A stretch of DNA of 64,000 nt from Thermus oshimai DSM 12092 (GCF_000373145.1 NZ_KB890619.1:127982-191981), one strand, 5' to 3'. Positions 6 through 12,490 are shown, counted from the first letter of the stretch. Notes: generated from the sequence alone by a model not told the origin. Numbers and translations: made by a program.

Positions 6-827
6 CGGTCCATCCCCACGGGCGTGGGGACTACTAGGGGCAGGAGCCCCACCCCCGCCACCGCCCGGTCCATCCCCACGGGCGTGGGGACTACGCACAT
101 CCGCCTCCGTTATGAGGACGCCATCTCGGTCCATCCCCACGGGCGTGGGGACTACGAACCTCCTCGCCTGGGAGAGGGGCGGGTCCAGCGGTCCATCCCC
201 ACGGGCGTGGGGACTACAAAGTCCCCGCGAACGCCCACGCTACCACCTCCGGTCCATCCCCACGGGCGTGGGGACTACAGGATGCGCTCCCGCTCCGCCT
301 CAAACGCCGCCGGTCCATCCCCACGGGCGTGGGGACTACCTCCCCGTCCGGGCCGATGGCGATGGTTTGGGCGGTCCATCCCCACGGGCGTGGGGACTAC
401 AGGATGCGCTCCCGCTCCGCCTCAAACGCCGCCGGTCCATCCCCACGGGCGTGGGGACTACCTCCCCGTCCGGGCCGATGGCGATGGTTTGGGCGGTCCA
501 TCCCCACGGGCGTGGGGACTACAGGATGCGCTCCCGCTCCGCCTCAAACGCCGCCGGTCCATCCCCACGGGCGTGGGGACTACGGCCTCCAGGAGGGCGC
601 CAAGGCCGAAGACGCCGGTCCATCCCCACGGGCGTGGGGACTACAACTCCACCATCTAGGAGGGAAACATGGCCATCGGTCCATCCCCACGGGCGTGGGG
701 ACTACCTTTGGACGCGGCAAGGGCTTTTCTGGAGGCTCGGTCCATCCCCACGGGCGTGGGGACTACATCCACGGCTGGGACATCCGGGACCTGGAGGCCG
801 GTCCATCCCCACGGGCGTGGGGACTAC
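6..827 (-). CRISPR. CRISPR array 1 (type I-E), runs off left edge
   Basis: Fourteen identical 29-base repeats start at 6, 66, 127, 189, 250, 311, 372, 433, 494, 555, 616, 677, 738 and 799. They are separated by 31-33-base spacers (mostly 32), giving 13 complete spacers and a cut one at the left edge. Read on the minus strand, a repeat is GTAGT, stem CCCCAC, loop GCCC, stem GTGGGG, then ATGGACCG, which is the 8-base 5' handle expected after Cas6e cleavage. The leader is on the right (828 onward), so transcription runs leftward, away from cas. Spacer 279-310 recurs at 401 and 523, and spacer 340-371 recurs at 462. Long open frames across this region are artefacts of the regular 61-base period. 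Confidence 0.98.
250..554 (-). repeat. Tandem amplification of a two-spacer unit in array 1
   Basis: Spacer A (279-310) and spacer B (340-371) alternate as A-B-A-B-A, ending at 554. With their repeats they form about 2.5 copies of a 122-base unit. The copies are identical by eye. Recombination or replication slippage between the identical repeats is the simplest origin; independent acquisition of the same two spacers in the same order is unlikely. Confidence 0.95.
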
Positions 828-990: not shown

Positions 991-1962
991 ATGGAGCGGA
1001 AAAACAAAACCGCCCGGCTGATGGACCTGGTGGATCGCTTAGCCCTCCGCCCTCATGGGGTTGGGGAGTTGGCCCGCCGCTATGGGGTCACGGAGCGCAC
1101 GGTGGAGCGCGACCTCGAGGCCCTCCGGGAGCAGGGCTACGCCGTGGAACGGGTGGGCCGGGGGCAGTATGCCCTTCGGGCTTCCTCTCCTCCCCTTCAC
1201 CCTGTAGAGGCGTTGGCCCTCTTCGCTGCGGGAAGGCTTCTCTACCACCAAGCCCCGACAAAGCAGTACGGGAGCGCCTTAGAAAAGCTAGCCCGTATGC
1301 TTCCAAACCCCTTACGGGAACTTCTCCTGCAAAGCACGAAAGGCCTCGAGGCCAAAGCCGGAGACTCCCGCACCTTGGAGATGGTGGCCCGGGCGCTTTT
1401 GGAAAGGCGGGTCTTGGCCTTTGAATACCGCTCGGGCGGCTCCAAAAACTGGCGGCCCAAGGAGCTTCAGGTGTATTTCCTGGAGGCCAACCGCACCAAC
1501 CTGGGCCTATACGCCATCGGGTACGAGAGAACCTATCACAAAAGCATTCTCACGTTTAAGCTCTCCCGTATGCGCAACACCCGCCTTCTGGAAGACACCT
1601 ACGAGTTCCCCCCGGACTTTGACCCAAGCGCCTATCTGCGCCAGGCCTGGGGGGTGGTGGGGGCACGGGAAGGCGCGGTGGAGGTGCGGCTTCGCTTTAG
1701 CCCTGAGGCAGCCTGGCGGGTTTTGGAAGGGGATTACCCCGGGCTCGAGGTGGAAGCCGAGCTTCCCGATGGGGGGCTTTTGGCCCGCCTTCCCGCAGTG
1801 CCCTTTAAGGGCGGGGTGCCTTGGGAGGTGTTGGCCTGGATCCAGAGCTTCGGCCCCCGGGTGGAGGTGCTGTCTCCCCCGGAGTTTCGCTCCCTTTGGC
1901 TGGAGGAGGCCCGTAAGGTGTGGGAACAGTATGGAACCCGACAGGAAATGTCGGCAGTCTAA
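991..1962 (+). CDS. WYL-domain transcriptional regulator of the cas locus
   Basis: This 323-residue protein has an N-terminal winged helix-turn-helix (about residues 10-65, with the DeoR/HTH_11-like stretch VTERTVERDLEALREQGY). A WYL domain follows from about 125 to the C terminus. WYL domains bind ligands, often nucleotides or nucleic acids, and several such regulators sit beside CRISPR loci; T. thermophilus HB8 has a similar gene ahead of its I-E cas genes. I chose ATG 991 because GGAG lies 6 bases upstream; an in-frame TTG at 979 is the alternative. The gene ends 14 bases before cas3, and its last codons overlap an inverted repeat (1938-1954) that recurs before cas8e and may be its operator. 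Whether it represses or activates cannot be read from the sequence. Confidence 0.88.
   Translation: MERKNKTARLMDLVDRLALRPHGVGELARRYGVTERTVERDLEALREQGYAVERVGRGQYALRASSPPLHPVEALALFAAGRLLYHQAPTKQYGSALEKLARMLPNPLRELLLQSTKGLEAKAGDSRTLEMVARALLERRVLAFEYRSGGSKNWRPKELQVYFLEANRTNLGLYAIGYERTYHKSILTFKLSRMRNTRLLEDTYEFPPDFDPSAYLRQAWGVVGAREGAVEVRLRFSPEAAWRVLEGDYPGLEVEAELPDGGLLARLPAVPFKGGVPWEVLAWIQSFGPRVEVLSPPEFRSLWLEEARKVWEQYGTRQEMSAV
1938..1954. promoter_or_regulatory. Inverted repeat before cas3, candidate operator
   Basis: CCGACAGGAAATGTCGG has perfect 6-base arms around a 5-base spacer. It lies 22 bases before the cas3 start, within the last codons of the WYL regulator gene. The same arms with the same spacing occur before cas8e at 4730-4746. 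It could be a regulator binding site or an RNA hairpin; no clear -35/-10 pair is visible next to it. Confidence 0.55.
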
Positions 1963-1976
1963 GGTAAGCTGGGCGC

Positions 1977-4727
1977 GTGAACGGGACCATTCCCGAAGCG
2001 GCCCTGGCCCTTTGGGCGAAAAGCGGAACCCCTTACCATCCCCTCCTGGCCCACATGCTGGACACGGCGGCGGTGGCCTGGGCGATCCTCCGCCGCGAGC
2101 CCTCACGAACCCTTTATCTATACGCCCAGGATTGGGGTCTTTCCGAGGAGGAGGCCCTATCCTGGGCCTCTTTCCTGGTGGGCCTGCACGACCTGGGCAA
2201 GGCCAGTCCCATCTTCCAGCTGGCCTGGGAAGAGGGCGCCAGGCGGGTACGGGGAGCAGGGCTTGAGTGGGACGAGGACCTGAAAGCGCATTGGGTAGCC
2301 CACGGAGTCTTTACCGATCTTTTCCTAAGAAGGCTTTTGGGGGAAAGGGGGCTTTCCAAGGTGGTGGCTGGGGATCTGGCCACGGCTTTGGGGGCCCACC
2401 ACGGTTTTCCCGCCACCGCCGAGGAGAAAAAGCAGGGAAGGCTTCACCTTCGCCTCGAGGCCGGTCCCTGGTGGGAGGTACGCGCCTGGCTTCTGGACGA
2501 GGTGGCCCGCACTTTAGGGGTGGTCTACCCCAAGGTGGAAAACGCCCGCCCAGAGGCCATCCTCAGGGTGATGGCCCTGGCCTCCTTTGCGGACTGGGTG
2601 GCCTCCGACCCGGCCCTTTTCCCCTATGGACGAGATCCCTTAACCCCCACCTACTGGCCGGAGGCGTTGGAGCTGGCCCAAAAGGGGCTGGATAGGCTTG
2701 GCTGGCGCCCCTACAGGCCCCCCGAGGCCAAGGGCTTCCAGGAGCTCTTTCCCTATATTCCCAGGCCCAACCCCTTGCAGGAGGCGGTCCCGGCCCTCCT
2801 TCAGGGGGTGGAGGAGCCGGTGCTCCTCCTGGTGGAGGCCCCCATGGGCATGGGGAAGACCGAGGCCGCCCTATACGCCCACCACCTTTTACAGCGGGCC
2901 CTAGACCACCGGGGCCTTTACGTGGCCCTGCCCACCCAGGCCACGGGCAACGGGCTTTTTCCGCGGGTGCGGGCCTTTTTGGAAAGGGCTTCGGCAGGAG
3001 CGGTGGAGCTACAGCTCCAGCACGGATCTGCCCTCCTGAACCCCGAGTATGGGGATTTACTGGAGAAGATCCATCCAGAAAGGGTAGGCGAAGGGGAAGA
3101 GGAAGGGGTGGTGGCCTCCGCCTGGTTCTCCGCCCGGAAGCGGGCCATGCTCTCCCCCCATGGGGTGGGCACCCTGGACCAGGCCCTCTTGGGGGTTCTG
3201 CGGGTGAAGCACCACTTCATCCGGCTTTGGGGCCTCATGAACCGGGTGGTGGTTTTGGATGAAGTCCACGCTTATGACGTCTACACCTCAGGCCTTCTGG
3301 AAGCCCTCCTCCGCTGGCTTCGGGCCCTGGGCTCCAGCGCCATCGTCATGACCGCCACCCTGCCCCCCTCCCGTAGGAAGGCCCTCCTTTCCGCCTGGGG
3401 GGCAAAGGAGGTGGCGGCCCTCGGTTCTTACCCCCGGGTGGCCCTTCTGGGAGCTGGGGGGCTGAGGGTGGAGGCCCTTCCCCCCGCCCGGAGGGTGGAA
3501 GTGGCCCTGGAGCGGGTTCCCGTGGAGGAAGAGGCCCTGGCGGCCCGCCTTTTGGCCTCCCTGCCGGGGGCCTTGGGGGCGGTGGTGAACACCGTGGACC
3601 GGGCCCAAAGGCTCTACCAGGCCCTAGGCCAGGGCCGGCCCCTCACCCTGGAGGGGTTGGTGGAGCGTTTGGGCTCCGGGGGGCAGGGCCCTTGGCAGGA
3701 GGTCTTGGAGGCCAAAGCGGAGAAGGCCCACTGGGTGGTAGGGAAGGAGCTCCAAGACGGCACTCTGGTCCTTCTCCTCCATGCCCGTTTCCCCGCGGAG
3801 GAAAGGGCCCTGAGGGAGAGCGTGGCCCTGGCCCTTTTCGGCAAAGGGGGTCCTAGGCCGGAGCGGGCCATCCTGGTGGCCACCCAGGTGGCCGAGCAGA
3901 GCCTAGACCTGGACTTTGACCTGCTCTACACCGACCTGGCCCCGGTGGACCTCGTCTTCCAGCGGGCAGGGAGGCTCCACCGCCATGAGCGCGGACGCCC
4001 AGAAGCCCACGCCCACCCCCGGCTCCTTTTGGGGGTGCCGGAGGGGCTTTCCTTTGGGGAACCCCTTTACTGGAGCCGGGTGTACGAAGACTTCATCCTC
4101 CTCGCCACCGGGAAGGCCCTGGAGGGCCGCGCCACCTTGCGCATCCCTGAGGACCTCGAGGCCCTTCTGGAGGCCGTGTACGAGGCAGGCCCTGAGGGCT
4201 TCCCCGAACCCCTTAGGAAACGGGCTGAGGAGGGGTTCCGTCGTCTGGAAGAACGCCGCAAGAAGGAGGAGGAAACCGCCCGCAACCTCTCCCTTTCCCA
4301 GCTGGAAAAGCTCCTGGCCTTGGGGGACAGCGCGGGGATGGCGGCGGAACTAGGATTGGAAGACGACGAGGAAAAACCCGAAACCCAGCGCCTCCTAACC
4401 CGGCTGGGCGACCCCAGCGTGGCGGTGGTGCCTCTCTTCCGGGTGGGGGAAGGGCTCTTCCTGGACCGGGAAGGGCGGCACCCTGTACGCCTTAGGGGCG
4501 AGATCGGCCGGGAAGAGGCGGAGGCCCTCTTCCGGCGGGCGGTGCGGCTTTCCCGCTTTCCCATCCCCCGGGACCTCTCCCGGGAAGAGCCCCCTTCCGC
4601 CTGGAAGAAGGTGGGCCTTCTGCGGGGCCTTCGGCCCTTGGAGGTGGGGCGGACCTTCGGGGAAGGCAAGGGCACCTTCCGGGTGGAGCTGGACCCGGAG
4701 CTGGGGGTGGTCTACCTCCGGGGTTGA
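1977..4727 (+). CDS. cas3: CRISPR-associated helicase-nuclease Cas3 (type I-E)
   Basis: This 916-residue protein is recruited by Cascade after target recognition, and it nicks, unwinds and degrades the DNA. The N-terminal HD nuclease shows His26 and the HDLGK motif at residues 71-75. The SF2 helicase core has Walker A (MGMGKTEA, about 290), the DEVH box (about 428), TATLPP (about 460) and motif VI QRAGRLHRH (about 662). A C-terminal accessory domain follows. Length and domain order are those of a normal single-chain Cas3, and no key motif is missing. The GTG start fits the short 14-base gap after the regulator gene. A 57-base gap separates it from cas8e, so cas3 may be controlled apart from Cascade. 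Confidence 0.98.
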   Translation: MNGTIPEAALALWAKSGTPYHPLLAHMLDTAAVAWAILRREPSRTLYLYAQDWGLSEEEALSWASFLVGLHDLGKASPIFQLAWEEGARRVRGAGLEWDEDLKAHWVAHGVFTDLFLRRLLGERGLSKVVAGDLATALGAHHGFPATAEEKKQGRLHLRLEAGPWWEVRAWLLDEVARTLGVVYPKVENARPEAILRVMALASFADWVASDPALFPYGRDPLTPTYWPEALELAQKGLDRLGWRPYRPPEAKGFQELFPYIPRPNPLQEAVPALLQGVEEPVLLLVEAPMGMGKTEAALYAHHLLQRALDHRGLYVALPTQATGNGLFPRVRAFLERASAGAVELQLQHGSALLNPEYGDLLEKIHPERVGEGEEEGVVASAWFSARKRAMLSPHGVGTLDQALLGVLRVKHHFIRLWGLMNRVVVLDEVHAYDVYTSGLLEALLRWLRALGSSAIVMTATLPPSRRKALLSAWGAKEVAALGSYPRVALLGAGGLRVEALPPARRVEVALERVPVEEEALAARLLASLPGALGAVVNTVDRAQRLYQALGQGRPLTLEGLVERLGSGGQGPWQEVLEAKAEKAHWVVGKELQDGTLVLLLHARFPAEERALRESVALALFGKGGPRPERAILVATQVAEQSLDLDFDLLYTDLAPVDLVFQRAGRLHRHERGRPEAHAHPRLLLGVPEGLSFGEPLYWSRVYEDFILLATGKALEGRATLRIPEDLEALLEAVYEAGPEGFPEPLRKRAEEGFRRLEERRKKEEETARNLSLSQLEKLLALGDSAGMAAELGLEDDEEKPETQRLLTRLGDPSVAVVPLFRVGEGLFLDREGRHPVRLRGEIGREEAEALFRRAVRLSRFPIPRDLSREEPPSAWKKVGLLRGLRPLEVGRTFGEGKGTFRVELDPELGVVYLRG

Positions 4728-4729
4728 AT

Positions 4730-4746
4730 CCGACAGGGGTTGTCGG
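4730..4746. promoter_or_regulatory. Inverted repeat before cas8e, candidate operator
   Basis: CCGACAGGGGTTGTCGG starts 2 bases after the cas3 stop codon and ends 38 bases before the cas8e start. The arms and the GG beginning the spacer match the element before cas3, while the other spacer bases differ. It lies in the only appreciable gap inside the cas gene run, which is where a second promoter would be expected. Confidence 0.55.
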
Positions 4747-4784
4747 GTTGGGGTGGTAACGTTCTGAACAAGGAGGAGCGCACC

Positions 4785-6263
4785 GTGGCCAAGTTCAACC
4801 TTCTGGAAGAGCCCTGGATCCCCGTCCTCCGAGGGGGGCGGGTGGAGGAGGTGGGCCTCGAGGAAGCCCTTCTAAAGGCGCCGGAGATCGCTCGCATAGA
4901 AACCCCCTCCCCCCTGGAAGAGGCTGCCCTGCACCGTCTCCTCTTGGCTGTCTTGCACCGGGCCCTTGGGGGGCCTTCCCGGGTGGAGGAGGTGGGGGCT
5001 TGGTGGCAGGAGGGCCACTTTCCCTTGGAGCCCATCCGGGAATACCTGGACCGCTACCGGGCGCGCTTTTACCTCTTCCACGAGGAGGCCCCCTTCTTCC
5101 AGGTGGCCGACCTGCCCGAGAAGGATCCCCTTCCCTGGAGCAAGCTTCTACCTGAGCTGGCCAGCGGCAACAACCCCACCCTTTTTGACCACACCACGGA
5201 GGAGAACCTTCCCCAGGTGGGCTACGCCCAGGCGGCCCGGGCCCTCCTAGTCCACCAGACCTTCACTCCCGGCGGACTCCTGCGCCGCCATGGGGTTCCC
5301 TCGGCCAACGGAGCCCCCTTGGCCGGGGCGGCGGCCTTCTTGCCCACGGGGACAAACCTATTTGAAACCCTCCTTTTCAACCTGGTCCCTTACCAAAAGG
5401 GGGAGGACGCACCCCTTTGGGAGGTCCCTCCGTTGCGCCTAGAGGACCTCGAGGGCCACAAGACCAAGTGGCCCCTTTCCGGAGTAACCCGGGTCTACAC
5501 CTGGCCCAGCCGGGGGGTGCGGCTTCTGGACGAGGGGGACGGGGTGCGCTTTATGGCCTATGGCCCTGGGGTAGAGCCGCTGGATGTGGCCTTCCGTGAC
5601 CCCATGGTGGCTTACCGGAAGGACGCCAAAGGCAACCTCCTTCCCTTGCGGCTCAGTGTGGAAAAGGCCTTCTGGCGGGATTTTGGGGCTATGCTCCCCC
5701 AAGTGGAGGGGGCTCCGCCTTCCACCGTGAACGCCGCCGACGAGCTTTTGGGCTACCTGGAGGAAGAGGGGCTAGACCCCCTTCCAACCCGAGGCCTGCG
5801 CGTCCTGGGCCAGGTTTCCGATCAGGCCAAGATCCTGGACATGCGCCGGGAGGTCTACCCCCTGCCCCCTAAGGTCCTCTCCGTCAAGGCCGAGCTGAAC
5901 CTGGGTCCAGCCCTGGAAAGGGCGGAGGCGTTGGGGCGGGGTCTAAGGGGGCTGGCCTTCCTCATGGCCCGGGAAGTTTTGGGAAGTGGCGAGCCGGGGG
6001 AACTATCGGCCTTTGCCGCCTCCCTGCCTTTGGAGCGCCTGTACTGGCATGCCCTGGACGGTAGTTTCCCTGCTCTCCTGGAGCGCCTGGGTAAGGAGGG
6101 GGATAGGGCCTTTTGGGAGGAGGCCCTTAGGCGGGCGGCCCTGGAGGCCTGGGCGGCCACGCGCGTCGCCCTGGGCACCGGGGCCCGGCACCTAAAAGCC
6201 TTGGCCAAGGGCGAAGCCTTGTTGCTTTCCCTGCTGGCGGAAAAGGAGGAGGTGAAGCGGTGA
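4785..6263 (+). CDS. cas8e: Cascade large subunit Cas8e (Cse1/CasA)
   Basis: This 492-residue large subunit of type I-E Cascade recognises the PAM and recruits Cas3. It opens with KFNLLEEPWIPVL, the usual Cse1 beginning, and it lies between cas3 and cas11. The open frame extends upstream to a TTG at 4740, but GTG 4785 is preferred: AAGGAGG at 4770-4776 is 8 bases upstream and the family normally begins at this sequence. The downstream gene overlaps it by 4 bases (GTGA), so translation is probably coupled. Confidence 0.96.
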   Translation: MAKFNLLEEPWIPVLRGGRVEEVGLEEALLKAPEIARIETPSPLEEAALHRLLLAVLHRALGGPSRVEEVGAWWQEGHFPLEPIREYLDRYRARFYLFHEEAPFFQVADLPEKDPLPWSKLLPELASGNNPTLFDHTTEENLPQVGYAQAARALLVHQTFTPGGLLRRHGVPSANGAPLAGAAAFLPTGTNLFETLLFNLVPYQKGEDAPLWEVPPLRLEDLEGHKTKWPLSGVTRVYTWPSRGVRLLDEGDGVRFMAYGPGVEPLDVAFRDPMVAYRKDAKGNLLPLRLSVEKAFWRDFGAMLPQVEGAPPSTVNAADELLGYLEEEGLDPLPTRGLRVLGQVSDQAKILDMRREVYPLPPKVLSVKAELNLGPALERAEALGRGLRGLAFLMAREVLGSGEPGELSAFAASLPLERLYWHALDGSFPALLERLGKEGDRAFWEEALRRAALEAWAATRVALGTGARHLKALAKGEALLLSLLAEKEEVKR

Positions 6264-10509: not shown

Positions 10510-12490
10510 GTAGTCCCCACACGCGTGGGGATGGACCGGGCTGCTATCCGCTAACGGCGGCCTAGCCAAGGTAGTCCCCACACGCGTGGGGATGGACCGC
10601 TCTTCCAGGCGTGTTTGCGGATGAGGGCCACGTAGTCCCCACACGCGTGGGGATGGACCGATGGAACGGGACTGGGCGGCCATCCCCCCGCCGTAGTCCC
10701 CACACGCGTGGGGATGGACCGTCCCGGACCACGGTGGCCGCGGGAATCCCCTCGTAGTCCCCACACGCGTGGGGATGGACCGGCGGGGCTGAAGTAGCGG
10801 TACTCCCGGGCCTCGTAGTCCCCACACGCGTGGGGATGGACCGGGTGACCCCAGCTTCAAGCCCGCCCCCATGCCGTAGTCCCCACACGCGTGGGGATGG
10901 ACCGGTTTACCCGCCGCCCCCGGCGAAAGCCCACCAGTAGTCCCCACACGCGTGGGGATGGACCGAGCGGCCGCGGCCATGCCAAACGGGCCTACGGGTA
11001 GTCCCCACACGCGTGGGGATGGACCGGTGGACATCGGGAGCGTGGAGAGCCTGGCGAGGTAGTCCCCACACGCGTGGGGATGGACCGGCCGCCCATTCGG
11101 CGTAGGGGATACCGGCCTCGTAGTCCCCACACGCGTGGGGATGGACCGGGCCGGGTTCGCGAACCCGATGTCCACCTCGAGTAGTCCCCACACGCGTGGG
11201 GATGGACCGGCCCCGTCCGGGTCCTGGGCCCGGAGGACAAGCGTAGTCCCCACACGCGTGGGGATGGACCGCGCTCCGTGCGGTTTAGAAGGCGCTGGAA
11301 GAGGTAGTCCCCACACGCGTGGGGATGGACCGCGCTCCTCGCCCCCTGGGGGAAAAGGTTGAAAGTAGTCCCCACACGCGTGGGGATGGACCGGACCCGG
11401 AACCGGGCCGGGTTCCGGGCCACCTGTAGTCCCCACACGCGTGGGGATGGACCGAGGTTCGGGCGGCGTTCCGCCAGGAGTACGGGGTAGTCCCCACACG
11501 CGTGGGGATGGACCGGTTTTAGCGAATATTACCGATAGAGGGCCCTTGTAGTCCCCACACGCGTGGGGATGGACCGGTTAAGGCGGCTTCAGAGGCTAAG
11601 GCTAAGGCGTAGTCCCCACACGCGTGGGGATGGACCGGTACGGTTACTGGAAAACCCGCCTCGCATGGGGTAGTCCCCACACGCGTGGGGATGGACCGGT
11701 TAAGGCGGCTTCAGAGGCTAAGGCTAAGGCGTAGTCCCCACACGCGTGGGGATGGACCGGTACGGTTACTGGAAAACCCGCCTCGCATGGGGTAGTCCCC
11801 ACACGCGTGGGGATGGACCGTTTATCCTGAAACCCGAGCCCGATACCATCGGGTAGTCCCCACACGCGTGGGGATGGACCGTAGGCCAGGGCCACCCCCG
11901 TGGTGAGCCCCACGTAGTCCCCACACGCGTGGGGATGGACCGGGAGAAATCCTCTCCCCGGTAGTTTTTTCCCAGTAGTCCCCACACGCGTGGGGATGGA
12001 CCGGGATTCTAGGCGCTATTGAGGGACGGGCCGCGTAGTCCCCACACGCGTGGGGATGGACCGACAAACCAATGCTCGGCTTCCGTCAGAATCGTGTAGT
12101 CCCCACACGCGTGGGGATGGACCGGATGTAGCGCAGCTCCTCCTCTCCCCCCAGCCGTAGTCCCCCCACGCGTGGGGATGGACCGGCTATCGTACGCCTG
12201 GTCCAGGACGATATTATGTAGTCCCCACACGCGTGGGGATGGACCGGCATTGTTCCGGTTACCGGGCCTAGCCTCCGTGTAGTCCCCACACGCGTGGGGA
12301 TGGACCGTAGGGGCGTTGAGTAGCGCTTATGACCCCCACGTAGTCCCCACACGCGTGGGGATGGACCGGTCTACGAGGCTCAGGTCTACGGCAACGGTTG
12401 GTAGTCCCCACACGCGTGGGGATGGACCGCAGGTTCGCCAAAATCTGGACCTTCCCTACATGTAGTCCCCACACGCGTGGGGAAGAGTAC
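10510..12490 (+). CRISPR. CRISPR array 2 (type I-E), 33 repeats and 32 spacers
   Basis: Twenty-nine-base repeats recur every 61 bases (one step of 62 and one of 60) from 10510 to 12462. Each repeat is GTAGT, stem CCCCAC, loop ACGC, stem GTGGGG, then ATGGACCG. It differs from array 1 only in the loop. The repeat at 12157 has one A-to-C change in the last stem/loop A region. The last repeat (12462-12490) loses the ATGGACCG end, which marks the leader-distal end and fixes transcription rightward. Two spacers are duplicated as a unit at 11548-11791. The array ends 5 bases before the -35 box of tRNA-Pro. Confidence 0.99.
11548..11791 (+). repeat. Tandem duplication of a two-spacer unit in array 2
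   Basis: The 122-base segment 11548-11669 (repeat, spacer beginning GTTAAGGCGG, repeat, spacer beginning GTACGGTTAC) is repeated at 11670-11791, with no visible difference. This is the same type of two-spacer duplication seen in array 1. Confidence 0.96.

Follow-up and report, generated by a model that had tools for sequence, protein, structure and literature searches.

Two identical palindromes in the type I-E locus

In Thermus oshimai DSM 12092, a gene for a WYL-domain regulator directly precedes cas3 of the type I-E CRISPR-Cas system, raising the question of whether this protein controls Cas3 and Cascade, through which DNA sites, and whether by activation or repression. That WYL proteins accompany CRISPR systems is an old observation, but little is known about their sites and mode of action. 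The window analyzed here is a 64,000-nucleotide stretch of the genome (NZ_KB890619.1:127982-191981), in which the locus is arranged as a CRISPR array, the WYL gene, cas3, cas8e, cse2, cas7, cas5, cas6, cas1, cas2, and a second array. Inside both arrays, repeat-spacer units are duplicated (window positions 250-615 and 11548-11791; families D2 and D3). An earlier sequence-only reading had reported two copies of the inverted repeat CCGACA-N5-TGTCGG, and both are present exactly at 1938-1954 and 4730-4746. The relevant features, in window coordinates, are as follows:

991-1962, plus strand: WYL regulator gene, 323 amino acids, with an N-terminal winged helix-turn-helix and WYL and WCX domains (Pfam HTH_11, WYL, and WCX above the cut-off)
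1938-1954, plus strand: site 1 (J1), a copy of CCGACA-N5-TGTCGG within the 3' end of the WYL coding sequence; predicted operator for the WYL protein at the cas3 promoter
1965-1970, plus strand: predicted -10 box TAAGCT, 11 nt past the right arm; 6 nt separate it from the cas3 GTG, as in leaderless genes
1977-4727, plus strand: cas3, HD nuclease-helicase (Pfam Cas3_HD and Cas3_C), with a predicted leaderless transcript
4730-4746, plus strand: site 2 (J2), a copy of CCGACA-N5-TGTCGG; predicted operator for the WYL protein at the cas8e (Cascade) promoter
4757-4762, plus strand: predicted -10 box TAACGT, 11 nt past the right arm, based on the offset counts over J2 sites
4770-4776, plus strand: Shine-Dalgarno sequence AAGGAGG of cas8e, read from the sequence
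4785-6263, plus strand: cas8e/cse1 (Pfam CRISPR_Cse1, E 1.8e-106), heading the Cascade run cse2-cas7-cas5-cas6-cas1-cas2

The most likely start of cas8e, judged from its position behind AAGGAGG, is the GTG at 4785. Both copies had been placed in gaps before translation starts. This is true for site 2, which lies in the 57-nt gap between cas3 and cas8e, 3 nt past the cas3 stop, but not for site 1, which is located within the WYL coding sequence; the WYL stop codon (TAA, 1960-1962) and the 14-nt gap before cas3 are downstream of it. The WYL gene itself is upstream of site 1, and no copy of the palindrome was found upstream of this gene. In the whole 2.26-Mb genome the palindrome has exactly two exact matches, versus none for the reversed control pattern. 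With two mismatches allowed, 6 further matches appeared versus 3 in the control, none of them exact.

Conservation of the sites and geometry of the predicted promoters

Of 61 related genomes, 48 encode relatives of the WYL protein, and the closest of these proteins are mostly encoded at the head of a type I-E operon. A scan of genome contigs with the single WYL protein returned six Thermus loci and nothing further. In almost every Thermus locus with a neighboring WYL gene, including those of T. thermophilus HB8, JL-18, and other strains, the pattern CGWCA-N5-TGWCG occurs before cas3 (J1) and before cas8e (J2), which is the kind of conservation that the sequence-only reading had proposed to look for. 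The co-occurrence of the motif with the WYL gene extends to several I-E loci of neighboring families, and the pattern is also present in remoter members of the order (e.g., genomes G043, G032, G062, and G065). In genome G039, about 1.4 kb separate cas3 and cas8e, yet the site is located 53 nt before the cas8e start. Several Meiothermus-like loci have the cas3 site only. Three loci with an adjacent WYL gene (L051, L052, and L056) showed no clear site, which counts against the reading of the palindrome as a WYL operator.

The right, promoter-proximal arm is better conserved than the left one. All five spacer bases vary among relatives, and the GG shared by the two T. oshimai spacers, to which attention had been drawn, is thus incidental. 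The reading frame of the palindrome and its position relative to the stop codon differ between loci: some copies overlap WYL stop codons, and others lie within or beyond the end of cas3. Since the site occurs in different phases, across and beyond stop codons, conservation imposed by WYL or cas3 coding was ruled out.

The earlier reading had not included a -10 box, which follows the palindrome at constant distance. When every offset from 0 to 25 nt past the right arm was scanned for TANNNT, the count at exactly 11 nt was 16 among 27 distinct J1 sites and 23 among 26 distinct J2 sites; no other offset had more than one. In the information profile of J2, the columns without any variation belong to the arms and to the TA of the -10 box. 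The spacing between site and box is constant, while the reading frame, stop position, and neighboring genes vary. Coding accounts for part of the J1 signal, because in roughly half of the J1 sites the TA of the box doubles as the WYL stop codon; at others (L037, L044, and L146), however, TAAGGT stands at the box position out of frame, and the box is therefore kept independently of coding. No -35 hexamer stood out above shuffled sequences at these sites. At J1, the -10 box is followed after 6 (rarely 7) nt by the cas3 start codon in almost all relatives, which matches the pattern of leaderless genes described for Deinococcus-Thermus (PMC12340547).

The composite pattern of palindrome and -10 box gave 35 matches in 27 Thermus genomes versus 1 for the reversed control, and in T. 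oshimai itself it hit exactly the two cas sites. Across 111 genomes of the order, 66 matches were tallied from the result table versus 11 in the control; because the control is nonzero, some of the scattered matches must be due to chance.

Natural variants of the locus were also observed. In genome G028 (L104, contig C36), the WYL gene is a fused remnant produced by an internal deletion; the cas3 site is kept and the cas8e site is degenerate. A promoter-like sequence, TTGACA-N17-TAGCTT, and a small open reading frame are found between cas3 and cas8e of this genome. T. thermophilus SNM7-6 carries an IS5 element at the WYL gene, the N-terminal part of which is absent. At locus L037 (G017, contig C106), a spacer of a Thermus I-E array (12200-12231) contains the full palindrome with flanks, GCAACCCGACAACGCCTGTCGGGAACCCGGGC, and resembles the cas3 site of the same genome; a search for its source among phages gave no meaningful match.

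The WYL protein and its probable mode of action

The domain order of the protein, winged helix-turn-helix, WYL, and WCX (Pfam matches above cut-off), is that of the DriD type. By profile comparison the closest solved relative is DriD (E 8.5e-13), followed by PafBC. Foldseek also ranked DriD best (E 2e-15), but with a TM-score of only 0.45 and with an AlphaFold model of low pTM as the query (pTM 0.53, pLDDT 81); BrxR and CapW came below DriD and PafBC in the fold comparison. R36 and R40, four residues apart in the recognition helix, are invariant, and the same spacing is reported for the recognition-helix arginines of PafB and SiwR. K190 and R193, two basic residues of the WYL domain, are invariant as well, which is suggestive only with regard to binding of single-stranded DNA. 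The PADLOC model Cas3c matches the protein (window 991-1959) through the N-terminal 320 residues of the model, which corresponds to known WYL-Cas3 fusions.

DriD of Caulobacter is a homodimeric WYL activator triggered by single-stranded DNA, with the consensus ATACGAC(X)7GTCGTAT; its site overlaps a weak -35 and keeps a constant distance to the -10 (PMC12340889). The DriD test oligonucleotide contains an exact CGACA-N5-TGTCG, and in our reading of the printed didA and driD promoters the arrangement is TGKCG-N11-CAAGGT or CAATCT (PMC12340889). Only these two promoters were used for the spacing comparison because a simple scan of the bapE promoter gave no convincing site. DriD and the Thermus system thus share the core CGAC-N7-GTCG, a fixed -10 distance with a poor -35, and, in didA and driD, the 11 nt between half-site and -10. 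They differ in that the two proteins have about 20% identity, the Thermus half-sites have A or T as the middle base, and DriD acts on DNA-damage genes rather than cas3 and Cascade.

The mycobacterial PafBC (RecA-NDp) motif is tTGTCRgtg-8nt-TannnT (PMC5656591), and PafBC is activated by single-stranded DNA (PMC11804915). It has in common with the Thermus sites the TGTCR-N11-TAnnnT spacing, promoters without a -35, and an activator of the WYL/WCX type, but it is a PafB/PafC heterodimer on a non-palindromic site, whereas the Thermus site is palindromic and is accompanied by one WYL gene. SiwR of Mycobacterium smegmatis is a WYL activator encoded beside its own targets, with a 19-bp imperfect palindrome between -35 and -10. 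Its targets are DinB-superfamily genes, a family also found downstream of the composite element in relatives; the sequence of the SiwR site is different, and there is no CRISPR link. Sll7009 (CRISPR I-D), BrxR, and CapW are WYL proteins adjoining a defense operon, as here; Sll7009 differs in being described as a negative regulator, and BrxR and CapW are remoter in fold than DriD and PafBC.

Probably the WYL protein acts like DriD and activates two separate promoters, one for cas3 and one for Cascade. A WYL dimer would bind CGWCA-N5-TGWCG at about -38 to -24, replace the absent -35, and recruit the housekeeping RNA polymerase to the TANNNT 11 nt downstream, like DriD and PafBC. The promoter at site 1 would yield a leaderless cas3 mRNA, and that at site 2 would drive cas8e and the remaining Cascade run. 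The WYL domain may respond to single-stranded DNA, or to a comparable nucleic acid, produced during infection or DNA damage. The proposal that the palindrome is the operator of the cas-linked regulator, with separate control of Cas3 and Cascade, has gained support from the conservation of the sites, their identity with the DriD site, and three WYL loci outside type I-E systems, and the sites are best described as the predicted activator-binding parts of two WYL-dependent promoters. We found no published description of these WYL-dependent cas3 and Cascade promoters in a literature search.

The direction of control appears to be activation rather than repression. A repressor that sits on the palindromes and blocks both promoters until release by a ligand, like Sll7009, BrxR, and CapW, seems unlikely to us. 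The sites overlap the region occupied by RNA polymerase, and known defense-linked WYL proteins include negative regulators (Sll7009, as cited in PMC4012209; papers on BrxR and CapW also exist). However, the fixed 11-nt distance to the -10 suggests an activator. This rigid spacing and the missing -35 are what one would expect of an activator and count against a repressor, and the protein resembles the activators DriD and PafBC more closely than CapW and BrxR. Expression data from T. thermophilus HB8 are also relevant. A TTHB099 mutant showed on microarrays an increase of 3.4 log2 for the WYL gene, 2.0 for cas3, and 1.2-1.7 for the Cascade genes, and TTHB188 was treated as the start of a separate operon (PMC7662524). 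The joint rise of the WYL gene, cas3, and Cascade agrees better with activation than with repression; the rise of cas3 could also result from read-through from the WYL promoter.

Another regulator could bind the sites, the WYL gene being merely linked to them. Such a protein might explain the sites close to integrase genes in genomes that have no I-E WYL gene and the persistence of the cas3 site in G028 after the WYL deletion, but WYL homologues at non-cas loci have the exact element directly downstream, and the site is identical to the target DNA of a WYL protein, DriD. In addition, three I-E loci without an adjacent WYL gene were tested, and no cas3 site was found in G033 and G070, with only a weak match in G037. 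We consider this explanation rather improbable. The sequence-only reading had also suggested that the palindromes act as RNA hairpins controlling translation of cas3 and cas8e, given two perfect inverted repeats shortly before start codons, and the outermost pair does co-vary modestly. The middle arm bases, however, are A or T independently of each other (AT 22, AA 13, TT 12, TA 4), and in 18 of 36 distinct sites the two bases at the variable middle position of the stem do not pair. This position shows no co-variation, which speaks against a hairpin with compensatory stem changes and fits two DNA half-sites TGWCG rather than an RNA stem. Moreover, a transcript begun past the -10 box would exclude the hairpin, and the -10 spacing would be left without a reason. 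As the variable arm base does not co-vary, control by RNA hairpins has very little probability.

Occurrence beyond type I-E loci and biological meaning

Activation by WYL proteins through this operator may extend beyond cas genes. At 15 further loci with WYL relatives, only three composite matches were found with up to two mismatches allowed (L065, L067, and L072); all were exact, and each was just downstream of a WYL gene in a non-I-E context. At L067 the gene after the element is sbcD, with an SbcC-type AAA-domain gene behind it, and at L065 a YbjN-family gene and a PD-(D/E)XK nuclease gene are downstream. Elsewhere in the order, composite matches precede cas3-like genes (L224 and L238), cse1 (L242), DinB-family genes (L228, L244, and L245), and a helicase gene (L229). 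Other Meiothermus WYL loci, including those with long open frames, did not contain the composite element; the Meiothermus WYL matches with open frames of about 1,100 amino acids may be WYL-Cas3 fusions.

The composite element was also observed in other, mostly integrase-linked Thermus regions (L134, L138-L142, and L145; G026:C8:322 and G006:C21:36827). These integrase-linked elements include ones from Thermus genomes without the I-E WYL gene, and therefore another protein may also bind the composite element.

Across Thermaceae and neighboring families, WYL activators responding to single-stranded DNA or genotoxic stress could use one type of operator to control cas3 and Cascade together with repair and damage genes (sbcD, the DinB family, and helicases), a generalization to which we give somewhat less than an even chance. 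If it is true, invading or broken DNA would directly turn on type I-E transcription, and single-stranded DNA made by Cas3 could amplify the response.

With the operator and the promoter geometry defined exactly and a direction of control proposed, the model is open to testing in T. thermophilus HB8 (TTHB186-TTHB188). Should the proposed activation be correct, Cas3 and Cascade would have separate promoters under one regulator within one gene cluster, and CRISPR immunity would be tied to the class of nucleic-acid-sensing activators that run SOS-independent DNA-damage responses.
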